DNA of 64,000 nt, taken from NCBI GenBank assembly GCA_002897115.2, contig BCIH01000001.1, forward strand, positions 2,307,057-2,371,056, written 5' to 3'. The notes beneath the pieces are model-generated. The model saw nothing but the letters and a program-made list of their open reading frames with translations, did not search any database and was not told the DNA's origin. Source of the DNA: Prototheca cutis. Its lineage: Eukaryota > Chlorophyta > Trebouxiophyceae > Chlorellales > Chlorellaceae. Below are positions 2,914-54,820 of this stretch, piece after piece; the first letter of the stretch is position 1; each line of letters starts with the position of its first letter. The translations under genes and the position numbers were made by a program.

Positions 2914-2949
2914 TTATCCAACTGATGATGATATTGATCAATCAAACGA

Positions 2950-2954
2950 TGTAA
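2950..2954 (+). terminator. Candidate TGTAA polyadenylation signal
   Basis: TGTAA, the usual green-algal polyadenylation signal, lies 37 bases after the stop of the RPA34-like gene. Confidence 0.4.
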
Positions 2955-3192
2955 AAGCGGTTCTTGCTCGGTGTCTGTGTGCTTGGTGCCCAAGTGCGAA
3001 GGGCAGCCGCGGCCCTAAATTTAACCTTGACTGGTGCACAGCCATGCATTCCCCTCCAGGCCTCCAAAAAAGGGACGTTTCCCTGTGAGCAGACAATCGT
3101 GATACTCACGGACAAATATCATGTTGATGCATGAACACCACCAGGTGGCCCATCCCCGCGCTGGCGATTGCTGAGGCCCTGTCGCGGCAGCC

Positions 3193-5466
3193 ATGTTCTC
3201 CGGTGCGGTGAAGATAGCGGACGTCAGCGACTTCATCAATCCGTCGCAGGACTGCGTTGTGAGCATCCAGGGCAACTCTGCTCAACAACCCAGCAACAAG
3301 GAAGAGAATGTGCGAGTGGTGGTGGGAGGGCCGTGGCACCTGGGCCGCAAGTGTGTATGGAGGGGTGGAGATCTGGGGAGGTGCAGGGGTTGCTGAGGGG
3401 CATCGTTTTCTGGTGTGGAAAGTCTGATTCCCTTAACATACTCGCATGCAGGGGTCTCTGGTGCGCTTGCAGAAGAGTCGGAGGCGGGAGGAGACCTCCC
3501 CCCTGGCTCAGGTGGCTCAGCCCCCGGCACAGCCTCCGCCGGTGACCATCTCGCTGAACGACTGCCTGGCATGCTCGGGCTGCGTGACCACGGCCGAGAC
3601 GGTGCTGCTCCAGGCCCAGTCCACGTCCCAACTCGTGCAACGGCTGTCGGACGGGCGTAGCACGGTGGTGGTGACCCTGTCGCCGCAGTCGGTTGCGTCG
3701 CTGGCAGTGGCGGCGGGGGACTGCCCCGCCGCGACCCTGGAGCGCCGCCTGGCAGCCGTGCTCCGAGCCCTGGGCGTCCGCGCCGTGTTCTCCTCGGCCC
3801 CGGCCCGCGATCTGGCACTCATGGATGTCCAAGCTGAACTTGTCGAGCGCCTCCGGGGGCGGAGTGCGGGTCGGAAGCCGAAGGTGGATGTGGCAGGGCA
3901 GGGTGTTCCGGCGCTTGGAACAATGACGGGAAACATGCCGCCGACACCGGGGTCCAACACCATGGGGCCCCCATTTCTGCCCTTGCTAGCATCGGCGTGC
4001 CCCGGCTGGGTGTGCTACGCAGAGAAGACACATGGCTCCTGGGTGCTGCCACACCTGTCTCGGACGGCCTCGCCCCAGGCCATCGCCGGGCGCCTGCTCA
4101 AGCGCTGGTGGGCACCCGCCGCGGGTGTGGACTCGCCTGGCGAGCTCTTCCACTGTGCCATCATGCCCTGCTACGACAAGAAGCTCGAGGCCGCAAGGGC
4201 TGACTTTTTGGTGCTTGGTGAGTGTTGGTCCATGTGCATGTGCTTGCACCGCCGTCGCAGCAGGGGCATAACGCACCACACCACACTACACACAACACGC
4301 TGTTATCCACCACGCAGGCACGCAAACGCCTGAGACAGACTGCGTGCTGTCCACCGCCGAGCTGGCGGCGTTTCTGGAGGAGCAGGGTGTGGAGCTTGGG
4401 TCGCCGGTGCCCGGGGAGATCCAGCCCCTGGACGCGCTGCCGTGCTGCCCGGCGCGGAAGCTGGGTCATGAAAGGCAGCCAGCTGTGAGCGGGCATACTA
4501 CGCCCGCTGACCAAGGGTCTTGTTCAGACTCCGAGCAGCGGACGGCGGCATGGTGGAGCGGCCGGGCGGGCAGCTCCGGCGGCTACCTGGCAGCTGCGTA
4601 CGAGGCGGCTGCGCGGGAGCTGGGCCGGGGTCAAGGCGACGCTGCGCCCATGCAGCTCAAAACTGGCCGCAATGCAGGTTGATGGGTCTGGCATGTTGCG
4701 GTGCGGGAGAATGGACCTGCACGGTGTCAGGGACAAGGGTTGGCGCAGGGCGGGGCCCTGTACCGCCTGGGATGCATGGTACCAATCAGATGGCAAGAGC
4801 GAGGGCTGAAGCCTCTGGTGCGATATGGGTGGATGCACATCTCGCTCCAAAACCCTGAAACCTTCTGTTTATCGAAAAACAACGCAGACATTCAGGAGGT
4901 GACGCTGGAGGTGGAGGGCCGGCCCGTCTTTCGGGGGGCTCTGTGTTATGGCTTCCGGAACATCCAGGGTCTCGTGCGGCGGATGCGCCAGCGCACGTGT
5001 CCTTATGACTATGTTGAGGTCATGGCCTGTCCTTCGGGTAGGTGGTGGCGTGCGTGTCGTGGACATGGAGGTGGTGGCTTGAAGTTCACCCAAAAAAGGA
5101 CGACGACTCCACTGAGCAACATCCTACTTGCTTGTTTCTGCGTACAACATTGCCATTGTCGGGGCATCACCATTCGGGAGTCCTAATTCTGGGGAGAACA
5201 CTCTTCTTCATGCAGGCTGTCTGAATGGCGGCGGGCAGATTCGGCCGCGACCAGGCCAGTCGACGGCAGACCTCGTGGAGCTGGTGGAGACGAGGTATGG
5301 CCAGCTGGCAGCTGCTGCTCCCATGGCGCCAGATCTCGCCGTCAGCGGCATGGTGGTCGGGTTTCGGGAGGCGATGGGGCAGCAGCCGGGCTTAGCGGCG
5401 GAGATGCTGCACACTCAGTACCACCACGTGCAAAAGTCGACCGGAAGCGCCCTCAAGGACTGGTGA
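3193..5466 (+). CDS. NAR1: Cytosolic Fe-S cluster assembly factor NAR1 (iron-only hydrogenase-like)
   Basis: Five exons (3193-3309, about 3452-4217, 4318-4677, 4888-5037, 5216-5466) join in phase to about 547 residues. The N-terminus MFSGAVKIADVSDFINPSQ with Cys21 matches NAR1. CLACSGC (Cys77, 80, 83) completes the first 4Fe-4S site. The hydrogenase-like core has ACPGWVCYAEK, AIMPCYDKK, ETDCVLST, YGFRNIQ and VEVMACPSGCLNGGGQ, which supply the other cluster ligands. The protein ends in KDW; a C-terminal Trp is the known CIA targeting signal. Known role: it passes Fe-S clusters to the CIA targeting complex in the cytosol and nucleus and is not a hydrogen-producing enzyme. Uncertain: an in-frame alternative acceptor at 3473, and a possible unrecognised intron in 4460-4530, where the sequence before SSGGYL is unlike the family. 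Confidence 0.93.
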
Positions 5467-5976: not shown

Positions 5977-6856
5977 TGCGGGCCTGTCGTGCCTGCAGTT
6001 GGGCATATCCAGCGATGGTGTGTGATCACGGCCGGTGGCGGAGTCCGCCTCCCATACAGGCAACTCAAAGTCCTGGTTACCTGGATATTCGCTAATATGT
6101 TTTGGTGTGCTTCTGAAAATGGAATGTGCAGTCGCTATGTATGGTGCGACGGGCGACAATGTCTATTCCGATCCGACTGGCTCTGAGGAAAGAATGGCCC
6201 CATGCTAAGGCCCTTCAACCTAGGTGTGCAATTACACCTCAGCGTATCTGCATCTGCAACCAATGCGCTCCACACGATCGTGCCTCCCGACCTCGGCAAC
6301 GGCCACCGATGATGGCCGACGTCCGGCGTCGAGGTACTGCGGCGCTCACGACGACGGGAAACACCCTATGGAGTCGCTGATGTCGTTGCTGCTTTCAGGG
6401 TAACCCACAGCCATGCTGATATCATTAAGGCGCCTTGGATAAGGCATCATGCCAATCCTGGAGCCCTAAGGCGGCTAGTGAGATGGCTGTCCGTGCAGGA
6501 ACATTCATCTGCGAGTTGCCAGTCTGAAATAACTGGCTCGAACTCGAGCCCGCGCTCCCACAAGCCGCCGAGCCGCCAATGCTCTTGAATCCGCGGGTAC
6601 GTCCCGTCCATGGATAGTGTCAGGCCCAGTCATCGAAAGCATGCAAAATCGCGAGCAGGGGAAGGGCCCAGGACGACGATGACCCGGTTCGGTGTGGCGC
6701 CAGCACTGAGAGCGTTGCCTGGGTCAGCCATCGCAGCGCATGTCGACTGATATTTCCACATTTTGGAGCCGATGAATTGTTGGATCGAATAATAGCTACA
6801 ACCCGTCCACTTTGCAATCTCGAACCCGGGATTCCACGCCGCAAGTTGATGTGTAG
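5977..6856. other. Intergenic, no gene seen
   Basis: About 880 bases upstream of the 84-residue gene. Lower GC than the surrounding exons; only short chance reading frames without domain-like sequence. Confidence 0.5.
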
Positions 6857-7440
6857 TACGCAGGGCAACGCTCGAGATCCGTTGACTCCCATGTGAATAG
6901 GATGGGCATGTCTACCAAACAAAATGCCTGTTTCATCACATTCCCTGGGCGCATCGTTCAGAGGATGGGTTGGGTTCCTTCTTGGCAGCAGGACAGGTCA
7001 TGCAGGGAGCAGACGCCCGAGGTGGTGTGCCACGGACTGCTGCGCTGCACCAACGAGGAGTGCCAGCCCCCGAATGGCAAGCATCATCTCTGGAACAGAG
7101 ACTTGATGGCATGTCTGAACATGAGGCACATCGGGCAGGTCCCCTGCGGAAGACCGGCGAGCGGCCTCGGCGCTTCCAGCACCGCAGTGCTGATGAACGT
7201 ATATCCATCTATCATGGGGGATAATAGCCTTCCCAACTGGGGGTCGAAACCTCCAGGGCTCCTTCCCTCTCCCGGCAAGGGAAAGCAGCCCCGGAGGTGG
7301 TCCATCATTGAGGTGGTCCACCTTCCTATTGCCCTGCGGAGTGTGAAAAATTTCGGCCATCCGTGATGCCCAGCAGCCCCCGGGGTGATGTGACGCTGTT
7401 GCTGGCTGAGCTGGTTGCATTATTTTTGCCCTGCATGGTA
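6857..7440 (+). mobile_element. Terminal-inverted-repeat element, copy A, with TnpB/Fanzor-like C-terminal remnant
   Basis: Homologous along its length to copies B and C. The right end is TTTTTGCCCTGCATGGTA; the left end is an eroded version starting TACGCAGGGCAA. Inside, a reading frame encodes CHGLLRCTNEEC, then HHLWNRDLMACLNMRHI. This resembles the zinc ribbon and final RDxxAxxN catalytic motif of TnpB/Fanzor RNA-guided nucleases. The frame shifts soon after the motif (GQVPCGRP in place of the VQxLxKTGERP seen in copy C), so the copy is decayed. No upstream RuvC-like parts are present, so this is a non-autonomous deletion derivative. An identical 11-base repeat, TAGTACGCAGG, occurs at 6854-6864 and 7439-7449. 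Confidence 0.7.
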
Positions 7441-8180
7441 GTACGCAGGAATTATGGAGGATCTCGACACGGACGACAGCGAACCCTGCATGTTGCCCCC
7501 CGCGCCACCGGACGAGTCGACGACGATCGCTGGGAATATTCTGTGATATGTCGATGCAAGGTTGCAATGGCGTCACAGAGATCAGCTGCACCTATGATCA
7601 TTGGGCCCGACTGGGCTGCACTCAGTCGGCAACGCCTTGCATGGCCCTGGCCCAGCCGATGACCCATTCCACCCCCCGGCTCCATGGCATCGTGGACAAG
7701 GCCGTGTGCTAGGAATATTGTGGATGGCCAATGCGACCGACAAGGTGGCCTGCGCCGAGGGTGGAGGACGTGCCATGGGGTTTCCACTCATGCATGACTG
7801 GCGTGTTTGCTGCACAGTGACTTGGGGGGTACCTTTGGTGGCCCAGCCACTCGTTCCTATGCTGGTGTTACATGGATGGACAGCCATCTTTCCATTCCGA
7901 ATGGATGGTCAGAGTCTCGGCATGGAAGGTGTTTGGATCGTCTGTGACAAAGGACGTCAGTCAAGGGGAAATAGCACTCGAGCGTGACTGGGAAAAGCGG
8001 GGATGGGAGGGGGTTGGCAGATGGAAGCGGCGGCGGCTTGGCCTGAAAGGAGTGCCTGGCACTGCCTCGCCATGAAGCAGCGCAAGACCTCCCGACACGC
8101 ACAAGAGGCTTGCGCCCAGAGTGCAGCTCACGGGGCCGACCACTGATCAGCTCATCAAGCCTCAGCGAGAACACCATCTT
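7441..8180. other. Intergenic, one short acidic open frame
   Basis: Downstream flank of element A and 3' side of the PPPPES protein gene. Holds a 30-codon frame at 7454-7546 (MEDLDTDDSEPC...) described under findings; otherwise nothing recognisable. Confidence 0.4.
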
Positions 8181-30734: not shown

Positions 30735-31779
30735 ATGCTGCACGCCGTCTCCCGTGCCGCCCGGTCCGTGGCTCCGCGGGTCCTGGCCCCTGCCCAGGCC
30801 CAGCAGCTGCGCTTCCTCAATGTCCATGAGTACCAGGTGCGAAGCTTGATGTCGTGCATGGGTATGGGTTTGGAGCTGACTGGGCCCCCAGCCGTGGCGG
30901 GATGAGAGCAGGTTGCCTGCCGTGCGCGGTGGTACTGGCGCGGATGGGCGACCCGGCATCACCGGACACCGCGCCACCCCGATCGCTCCTCCCCCGCGCA
31001 TCCCACTACCACAGGGCGCTCAGCTGATGAGCGAGTACGGCATCGTGGTTCCCGAGGGCATCCCCGTCAAGTCCCTGGATGAGGTCCCCGCTGCGGCCAA
31101 GAAGCTGGCCGACGACAAGGGCGAGGTTGTGATCAAGTCCCAGATCCTGGCCGGCGGCCGCGGTCTGGGCACCTTCACCAATGGCTTCAAGGGTGGTGTG
31201 CACATCGTCAAGGTCGAGGACGCTGAAAAGACGGCGGAGAAGATGCTGGGTCAGACACTGGTGACCAAGCAGACGGGAGCCAAGGGCAAGCCCGTCAACA
31301 CGCTGTACCTGGCCAAGAAGATGGCTCTGGAGCACGAGATGTACTTTGCCATCCTGCTGGACCGCAAGTCTGCTGGCCCCATGATCATTGCCTGCTCCGA
31401 GGGCGGCACGAGCATCGAGGACCTGGCCGAGAAGTACCCCGAGAAGATCGTCAAGGTCCCCATCGACGTGTTCCAGGGCATCACGCGCGAGCAGGCGGAG
31501 CGCGTGGTGGAGGGCCTGGGCGTCCGCACCGACAAGGCCGCGGCGGCGGCGCAGATCGAGGCACTGTACAAGCTGTTCGTGGAGAAGGACTGCACCATGG
31601 TGGAGATCAACCCACTGGCCGAGACCAAGACCAGCCTGATTGCCGCCGACGCCAAGCTGGGCTTTGACGACAACGCCGCGTTCCGCCAGCCGGAACTGTT
31701 TGCCATGAGCGACCCCAGCCAGGAGGATCCGCGCGAGGTGCAGGCCCACAAGTACGACCTCAACTACATCGGCCTGGAC

Positions 31780-31811
<32 letters not shown>

Positions 31812-32319
31812 TCTGGCCATGGCCACCATGGACATCATCAAGCTCCGCGGCGGCGCGCCCGCCAACTTCCTGGATGTCGGTGGCAACGCGTCGGAGGAGC
31901 AGGTGGTGGCCGCCTTCAAGCTCCTCACCTCTGACCCCCAGGTCAAGGCCATCCTGGTCAACATCTTTGGCGGCATCATGCGCTGCGATGTCATCGCCTC
32001 GGGCATCGTCAACGCCGCCAAGCAGGTCTGTGTGCCTTTTTCCTTTGGAAGAGGGAAGGGAGGGGTTTTTGAGGGGGGAATACGTGTGCATTGTCGGCCG
32101 TGGTTGCTGGGCAATGGGTCCGCCGACCAAGCCTCATGCCAACCTTTCCCTCCCCTGCACGTCAAACCTCAGGTGGGCGTCAAGGTGCCGCTGATCGTGC
32201 GCCTGGAGGGTACCAACGTCGAGGAGGGCAAGCGCATCCTGCGGGAGTCTGACGTTGACATCATTGCGGCCAACGACCTCGACGATGCCGCTGCCAAGGC
32301 CGTTGGCTCGCTGAAGTGA
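30735..32319 (+). CDS. SUCLA2: Succinyl-CoA ligase (ADP-forming) beta subunit, mitochondrial
   Basis: Three exons (30735-30836, 31015-32025, 32173-32319), all phase 0, give 419 residues. Reaction: succinyl-CoA + ADP + phosphate to succinate + ATP + CoA in the TCA cycle, with an alpha subunit encoded elsewhere. Seen: a short Arg/Ala-rich presequence ([16 protein letters not shown]), [17 protein letters not shown], the ATP-grasp region [90 protein letters not shown] and [18 protein letters not shown]. All hallmark motifs are intact. Strong bias to G/C-ending codons in the large exon suggests high expression. Confidence 0.97.
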
Positions 32320-44605: not shown

Positions 44606-44762
44606 GGCGAGCTTCCTCTCGCCCTCTCGATCACGCCAGCTGCAACTAGTGCACTCCCGCAGCAGTCATTATGGACACTACTATTGCAGGACCTCTTTCA
44701 CAAAGCAATAATGGACCCAAATGAAAGCATGGGCGGCCTGTGATGAGTGCCGAGTGTGCCTG
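44606..44762. promoter_or_regulatory. Short upstream region of the Furry gene, bordered by element B
   Basis: Only about 157 bases separate the Furry start codon from the left end of inverted-repeat element B, so the element lies in or next to the promoter. No specific promoter motif was identified. Confidence 0.35.
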
Positions 44763-45387
44763 TACCGTGCAGGGCAAAAATGATGAAACCTTCTCGAGAT
44801 TCGTTGACTCCCACCTGCACAGCAAGGGCATGTCTCCCAAACAAAATGCCTGTTGGACCGCATTTCCTTGCCGCGTCGCTCAGAGAATGATTTAGGTTCC
44901 TTCTAATAGCAGGACAGGTCGGTCCCAGCCCATACCTGCACTACAGGGAGCAGATTCCCACGGTGCGGTGTCATGGGCTGCTGCGCTGCACCAACGAGGA
45001 GTGCCGGCCCCCGAAAGGCGAGCATCGTCTCTGGAACCGAGACTTGATGGCGTGTCTGAACATGAGGCACATCGTGCAGTACCTGCGGAAGACCGGCCAG
45101 TGGCTTCTGCGCTTCCAGCGCCCAAGAGCACGGTGCTGATGAACATGCATCCATCCATCCTGGAGGGTTATAGCCTTCCCAACTGGGGGTGGGAACCCCG
45201 GGGGCTCCTTCTCTTCCCCAGGAAAGGAAAACAGCCCCGGAGCTGGTCCATCATTGAGGTGGTCTACCTTCCTATTGGCCTGCAGAGCGTGAAAATTTTC
45301 GGGCCATCCGTGATGCCCAGCAACCCCCGGGGTGATGTGATACTGGTGCTGGCTGAGCTGGTTGCATTATTTTGGCCCTGCACGGTA
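44763..45387 (+). mobile_element. Terminal-inverted-repeat element, copy B, with TnpB/Fanzor-like C-terminal remnant
   Basis: 625 bases bounded by inverted repeats: left TACCGTGCAGGGCAAAAATG, right the complement with about 3 mismatches in 28. Flanking TA on both sides may be a two-base target duplication. Inside, one frame from about 44952 reads TVRCHGLLRCTNEEC, then GEHRLWNRDLMACLNMRHI and VQYLRKTGQW, ending at a TGA near 45140. The CxxxxxxCxxxxC cluster followed by NRD-x-x-A-C-x-N resembles the zinc ribbon and last catalytic Asp of TnpB/Fanzor nucleases. Earlier catalytic parts are absent, so the copy is non-autonomous. It sits between the FAN1 3' end and the Furry start. Confidence 0.75.
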
Positions 45388-54223: not shown

Positions 54224-54820
54224 TACCATGCAGGGCAAAAACAATGCCACCAGCTCAGCCAGCAACAGCGTCACATCACCCCGGGGGTTGCTGGGCATCA
54301 CTGATGGCTGTGAATTGTCACCCCCCACAGGGCAATAGGAGGTGGACCACCTCAATGACGGACCACCTCCGGGGCTGCTTTTTTCCTTTCCAGGGAGGGA
54401 AGGAGCTCCGGGGTTCCGACCTCCAGTTAGGAAGGCTGTAACCCCCCAGGATGGATGGATGTATGTCCATCAGCACTGCGGCGCTGGAAGCGCTGAGGCC
54501 GCTCGCCGGTCTTCCACAGGCTCTGCACGATGTGCCTCATGTTCAGACACGCCATCAAGTCTCTGTTCCAGAGACGATGCTCGCCTTTCGGGGTGTGGTA
54601 GTCTTTGTCAGTGCAGCGCAGCAGCCCGTGGCACACCACCGTGGGCGTCTGCTCCCTGCACGACCTGTCCTACTGCAAGGAGCCCAGCCCATTCTCTGAG
54701 TGACGTGGCAAGGGAATGCGATCCAACAGGCATTTTGTTTGGTAGACATGCCCTTGCTGTGCAGGTGGGAGTCTTCTGACGAATCTCGAGAAGGTGTCAT
54801 CATTTTTGCCCTGCATGGTA
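54224..54820 (-). mobile_element. Terminal-inverted-repeat element, copy C, with TnpB/Fanzor-like C-terminal remnant
   Basis: 597 bases in reverse orientation, with the best-preserved ends: both termini read TACCATGCAGGGCAAAAA, the first 18 bases identical and about 25 of 28 matching. The coding remnant reads VCHGLLRCTDKDYH, then GEHRLWNRDLMACLNMRHI and VQSLWKTGERPQRFQR. The second half of the zinc ribbon is lost (the Cys of TNEEC became Tyr), while the NRD motif is kept. It lies about 500 bases upstream of the J-domain gene start. Confidence 0.75.

Follow-up and report, generated by a model that had tools for sequence, protein, structure and literature searches.

Background

Spu-1, the element of Spizellomyces punctatus associated with SpuFz1, is among the closest described counterparts of the element reported here. 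It is reported to have 134 ghost loci, of ~550 nt, with no transposase described between its repeats; a CA dinucleotide is conserved upstream of its left repeat, and its measured TAM is CATA (PMC10432273). Some Tc1/mariner elements are described as encoding only Fanzor1, with terminal inverted repeats (TIRs) and TA duplications (Bao and Jurka 2013, PMC3627910). In the green alga Auxenochlorella, the most abundant repeat is reported to encode a Fanzor, in an element that its source calls uncharacterised (PMC12636532). Ghosts, Fanzor1 elements flanked by TA, and Fanzors in algae are already on record (PMC10432273, PMC3627910, PMC12636532); what this analysis adds is thus a new family, together with a predicted TAM. 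No published description of this Fanzor1 family was found in the literature searched. The family has clear sequence links to solved nucleases, and it comes with a predicted TAM (TGTA) and many ghost loci, all within a small genome. Should the asymmetry of its flanks reflect Fanzor action, the role of Fanzors for eukaryotic transposons could be tested in one organism.

As in the published account of Spu-1, a single Fanzor1 frame lies between inverted repeats, ghosts occur with both ends, a dinucleotide is conserved upstream of the left repeat (here at the level of the family), and no transposase was matched for the element in the Pfam families searched. Unlike Spu-1 as described, the dinucleotide is TG rather than CA, the 0.6-kb ghosts retain C-terminal codons of the Fanzor, and the host is a green alga, Prototheca cutis. 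The protein is distant from SpuFz1 and, unlike it, has a Gly/Arg-rich insert. The likeness to the Auxenochlorella Fanzor repeat is by description alone. Compared with the Fanzor1 elements of Tc1/mariner type in their published description, no mariner-type transposase was matched here, in searches with weak controls, and the ends are consistent with a TA duplication.

Three short copies in the window

The window, a 64-kb stretch of DNA (C1:2307057-2371056 of a 19.9-Mb assembly), contains three copies of one repeat: copy A (6857–7440, + strand), copy B (44763–45387, + strand), and copy C (54224–54820, − strand). Their positions and strands are those of the preliminary description. The copies are 86.9% (A–B), 88.6% (B–C), and 87.6% (A–C) identical over 574–589 aligned bases, and the local alignment of B with C scores 719, against a maximum of 32 among 50 shuffles. 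Each is a ghost of ~0.6 kb. As in ghosts of the Spu-1 type, the ends are kept and the Fanzor gene is lost, with copy A having a decayed left end.

The TIRs of copy B, both annotated on the + strand, are located at 44763–44790, starting with TA, and at 45360–45387, ending with TA. They match each other at 25 of 28 positions, as do those of copy C, so that the earlier figure for both copies holds. The left end of copy A matches at 8 of 28 positions without gaps and is thus decayed, and its right end is intact. The sequence GTACGCAGG occurs both at this decayed left end (6856–6864) and immediately to the right of the right end (7441–7449), a pattern that would fit a rewriting of the left end from the empty target site.

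The frame CHGLLRCTNEEC...LWNRDLMACLNMRHI, previously read in these repeats, is present in copy B. It belongs to a relic of the Fanzor1 3' end that runs to the stop codon (44969–45139, + strand) and contains a zinc ribbon (CHGLLRC...C) followed by WNRD, which holds the RuvC-III Asp; the relic was assigned by its frame and by its relation to the long copies described below and to SpuFz1. A relic also occurs in copy A and, with altered zinc-ribbon residues, in copy C. Because the window copies retain just the terminal zinc-ribbon/RuvC-III part of Fanzor1, they cannot be nucleases. Downstream of the relic, copy B has a conserved right end in common with the long copies (45217–45387, + strand). Rfam and tRNA scans of the 64-kb window gave no match.

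Long copies carrying the Fanzor gene

Longer Fanzor-bearing copies, predicted earlier to lie elsewhere in the genome, do exist. At L044 (C4), the Fanzor gene lies between both standard ends in 4.3 kb, including an assembly gap of 2401 N. The copies at L046 (C20) and L047 (C7) are nearly gap-free and have ordinary right ends, with a left end that is variant in L046 and degraded in L047. By alignment, the element in L046 is 3432 bp. A further locus, L024, is a 2.2-kb internal deletion that keeps both standard ends.

Copy B aligns to positions 5–161, 2925–3204, and 3259–3429 of the 3.43-kb copy in L047, and the deletion junction of the window copies joins element positions up to ~161–170 to position ~2924 onward. 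These alignments, together with ends common to the long copies, show the window repeats to be internal-deletion derivatives (ghosts) of a ~3.4-kb element with homologous ends, as had been proposed. The parent had been called an autonomous Fanzor-bearing transposon. Its Fanzor gene was found; no transposase was matched in the Pfam families searched, so that 'autonomous' is at most a putative label for the long element.

A second type of left end, approximately TACAKTNACGGCAGAAAATG, occurs with an ordinary right end in L002, L006, L039, L043, and L046, and left ends are more variable than right ends. In the left part of L024, L044, L046, and L047, a stretch of ~110 bp is duplicated ~280–290 bp apart.

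A 290-amino acid C-terminal query gave 56 matches in the genome at E≤1e-30. Seven loci are free of stops from residue 1–2 to 289–290 of this query, and one further full-length match has a single TGA. Four long copies differ by a pairwise dS of 0.03–0.06, with dN/dS of 0.13–0.69 (285 codons, small counts), the low dS indicating recent spread. Between the long copies and one paralogue at L048 (see below), dS is 0.42–0.48 and dN/dS 0.56–0.60. The window ghosts are 11–13% apart from one another.

The Fanzor1 protein

The 708-amino acid frame of L046 has three collinear stretches of match to PpFz1 of Parasitella parasitica (PDB 9cf0; E=4.6e-60) and two to SpuFz1 (PDB 8gkh; E=2.3e-30), and the proteins of both L044 and L046 are collinear with these two solved RNA-guided Fanzor1 nucleases. 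GtFz1 is matched at E=0.12. Six PDB sequences in all were matched at E≤1; the three besides PpFz1, SpuFz1, and GtFz1 are unrelated, and none is named Fanzor2 or TnpB. The extended frame, which had been called TnpB/Fanzor-like from its C-terminal end, thus proved to be a Fanzor1 and not an unrelated transposase. Against PF07282, the L046 frame scores 21.5 bits (E=2.7e-4), under the cut-off of 26.3, and profile searches with two L046 frames returned PF07282 or nothing.

Catalytic residues are conserved. In the alignment, SpuFz1 residues D383, E541, and D606 correspond to Asp in IDPG, Glu in LIDEFRTS, and Asp in WNRD; the SpuFz1 report assigns these three residues and N385 to the active site (PMC10432273). 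At the position of N385, the element family has Gly and the L048 paralogues have Asn. Fanzor1 proteins are described as having a DPG motif in RuvC-I and a displaced (alternative) RuvC-II Glu (PMC10711439); the long copies have both, in IDPGRGD and LIDEFRTS. They also have a C4 zinc finger (CPAC...CHGLLRC..C) followed by the RD of WNRD. By its sequence relationships, the long-copy protein is shown to be a Fanzor1 homologue with conserved catalytic residues, and by analogy with its solved relatives we infer that it would bind an omega-RNA and act as a nuclease. At the position of the TDG motif of the WED domain, L046 and L047 have SDG and an L048 paralogue has TDG.

PpFz1 (PDB 9cf0–9cf3; described in PMC11423790) is the best solved relative. 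The protein here differs from PpFz1 in lacking a segment of ~110 residues between aligned stretches (985–1096 of the PpFz1 chain), which seems, from that description, to be the site of the RuvC insertion (FRI). It also differs in having ~150 Gly/Arg-rich residues before RuvC-I. This insert is shared with a relative in public protein sets (P0001) and contains a PAKRKFP motif, a possible nuclear localisation signal. Nine relatives were found in these sets at E≤0.001, including three Rhizopus proteins; P0001 is 73% identical over 53% of the query, and P0002 48% over 40%.

Upstream of the Fanzor1 frame is a frame of 220 amino acids, for which a phmmer search against the PDB gave no match. It resembles the N-terminal part of P0002 (BLASTP, 25% over 83 positions, E=5e-6 for that pair), and judging from the sequence, a GT-AG intron is likely to lie between the two frames.

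Size classes across the genome

The TIR pattern occurs at 206+212 = 418 places in the genome at ≤2 mismatches, and a reversed control pattern at none. The right-end pattern occurs at 279 places at ≤3 mismatches, a few of which may be left ends, given how similar the two ends are. When copy B was used as query in a DNA search, at least 46 matches came from the 40 candidates scored of 378 at first look; in a search with the window-copy module, the best 150 of 372 candidates were scored.

Elements fall into size classes of about 3.4, 2.2, 0.6, and 0.36 kb. Both ends were listed for 43 elements, of which 23 are ~0.36 kb, 17 are ~0.6 kb, and three are longer. As indicated by split matches in the copy B search, the ~0.36-kb class joins the first ~159 to the last ~144 element positions and has no Fanzor relic. 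Inverted pairs of right-end-type sequences ~0.11–0.12 kb apart occur at C2:917813-917931, C5:67192-67313, C7:263340-263448, and C8:807732-807843; from their layout, these are perhaps a still smaller derivative flanked by two right ends.

Viral contigs were searched with one peptide pattern, which gave 23 stretches, none confirmed as relatives, and for an exact TIR match, which was not found; a viral source is possible.

Insertion sites and predicted TAM

TA is present at nearly all listed matches to the end patterns, although TA is itself part of the search pattern. The fetched right ends of L004, L039, L043, L046, and L047 are among those reading TG or CG instead of TA. A search of the available sequences turned up no empty site. 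The possible TA target duplication suggested earlier is consistent with these data.

A dinucleotide preference is evident outside these ends. Among the best-matching of the listed ends, 47 of 87 left ends have TG immediately adjoining on the outside, as do 37 of 134 right ends (read outward), compared with a background of 54 of 663 (8%) in neighbouring flank positions. The left and right frequencies differ (Fisher p=1.2e-4), and do so after collapse of identical 6-mers (39/78 versus 34/129, p=9e-4). Of the 43 paired elements, 19 have just the left TG, three have just its mirror image, CA, at the right, four have both, and 17 have neither (exact McNemar p=9e-4). By left-end type, TG precedes TACCG in 21 of 29 copies, TACTG in 7 of 10, and TACAA in 5 of 9; values are lower for TACCA (7/17) and TACAG (7/19), and TATGG (0/2) and TACTA (0/1) have no TG. 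Of the window copies, B has the left TG, and A and C do not.

Because right-end flanks, too, have TG above background (37/134 versus 8%), part of the motif is plain target preference: the preferred site is to some extent palindromic (TGTACA), with a bias to the left in addition. The paired test (19 versus 3) rejects symmetric target preference as a full account of the left TG. In Spu-1, the conserved CA and the TA together give the CATA TAM; by analogy, the left TG and TA predict TGTA as the TAM of the long-copy Fanzor1. At the left junction of copy B, this predicted TAM is made up of the flanking TG and the terminal TA (44761–44764, + strand).

Conservation and folding of the right end

Across 17 copies, pairwise identity is 0.90–0.945 in the last 75 nt. 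In the first 150 nt, taken in blocks of 25 nt, it is 0.69–0.89; variation among left ends and imprecise start points account in part for the low value of the first block. The relic coding block at positions 276–300 is as conserved as the right end (0.954).

The right end can be folded with a stem closed by the terminal repeat and TA, and in 19 copies the pairs of this fold form in 98.4% of cells. One pair is changed on both sides, and in 23 to 75 of 500 shuffles the values are as high as those observed. With this single two-sided change and a modest excess over shuffles, the fold gives weak comparative support to the omega-RNA envisaged earlier next to the right end, and is suggestive of a scaffold there. 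In copy B, the hypothetical scaffold would occupy 45276–45387 (+ strand), with an upstream TGCC.TGCA paired to the terminal repeat and TA.

Origin and spread of the element

The three repeats are very probably non-autonomous ghosts of a ~3.4-kb DNA element whose sole recognised gene is Fanzor1. This degree of confidence applies to the Fanzor1-ghost origin, and the RNA-guided steps are less certain. A putative cut-and-paste transposase, acting in trans, would move long copies and ghosts through their ends and insert them at TA sites, with some preference for sites resembling TGTACA. On the pattern of the solved relatives, the long-copy Fanzor1 would then bind an omega-RNA from the right end, the 3' extension of which would be the DNA to the right of the insertion. 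It would cut the matching empty site beside the TGTA of the left flank, and repair would copy the element back in.

A rival account, which we regard as a serious contender though somewhat short of probable, is that the short copies are ordinary MITEs of a cut-and-paste transposon. On this view, the Fanzor relic would be debris carried along as a passenger, the need of the transposase for the right end would alone explain its retention, and the left TG would reflect a preference of the transposase for certain ends. The inverted repeats with TA at both ends, the two dominant size classes (23 elements of ~0.36 kb and 17 of ~0.6 kb among the 43 pairs), the absence of the relic from the 0.36-kb class (by its split matches), and the TG enrichment at right-end flanks all fit this account. 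However, the left-biased motif parallels the CA/CATA of Spu-1, and the last 75 nt are better conserved than the first 150. Genome searches with PF13358 (DDE_3) and PF03184 (DDE_1), in unspliced sequence, also gave no match at E≤0.1, although the control searches matched 3 of 14 and 1 of 14 genomes, respectively, and are thus weak. The equivalent search with PF01359 gave no match either; as its control matched 0 of 14 genomes, this null is uninformative.

Ghosts in which the right end is retained could act in trans as a source of additional guides. We tentatively consider a stronger version, which is possible but rather doubtful: that the ghosts constitute a bank of guide loci acting in trans across the genome, in which each right end yields an omega-RNA with the adjoining DNA as its guide, and that one pool of Fanzor1 cuts those empty alleles that match, at TGTA, such that this retention filter, and not the transposase, produced the excess of TG at left ends. 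If true, a TAM could be read from insertion-site asymmetry alone.

It is very unlikely that Fanzor spreads the element by itself, cutting TGTA targets into which repair copies the element. The left-flank TG and the failure of three transposase families to match are in its favor, but the latter was weakly tested (controls of 3, 0, and 1 of 14 genomes, unspliced), the flanks have in common TG next to the ends and no guide-length sequence, and TA with inverted repeats points to a DDE-type step. Lastly, a chance frame or a fragment of an unrelated zinc-finger gene as the source of CHGLLRC...NRDLMACLN, suggested by how short and interrupted the fragment is within the window, is ruled out for practical purposes by the long copies, which extend the frame without break to the 708 amino acids related to Fanzor1 at E=4.6e-60.

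Other genes in the genome and window

At least 150 scored matches, many of them above the cut-off, came from a genome search with PF07282 and represent two Fanzor-like families; none of the listed matches lies in the window. The second, distinct TnpB/Fanzor-like family occurs at L025, L026 (2272–4788, + strand), L028, and L029, with frames of 839 amino acids (L026) and 914 amino acids (L025, 196 residues unresolved). It has the motifs GIDPG and WNRDVNAARNI and matches PF07282 at E=1.4e-12, and just three distant relatives of it were found.

Three Fanzor1 paralogues are clustered at L048 (C4:1443500-1452500), without recognisable TIRs. They are 65–69% identical to the element family and ~90% identical among themselves; two have frames of 680 and 685 amino acids, with DPN in place of DPG. 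Another Fanzor1 locus, 54% identical to the element family, is located at C2:1190608-1191282.

The window also contains a succinyl-CoA ligase beta gene (30913–32316). Among the best 120 of its 7264 relatives, those named are mostly from green algae (Chlorella, Micractinium, and Coccomyxa), which on this one gene would place the host, probably a green alga, near Trebouxiophyceae. The gene is 67–71% identical to its Chlorella and Micractinium counterparts, and the top record among the listed relatives is from a land plant.
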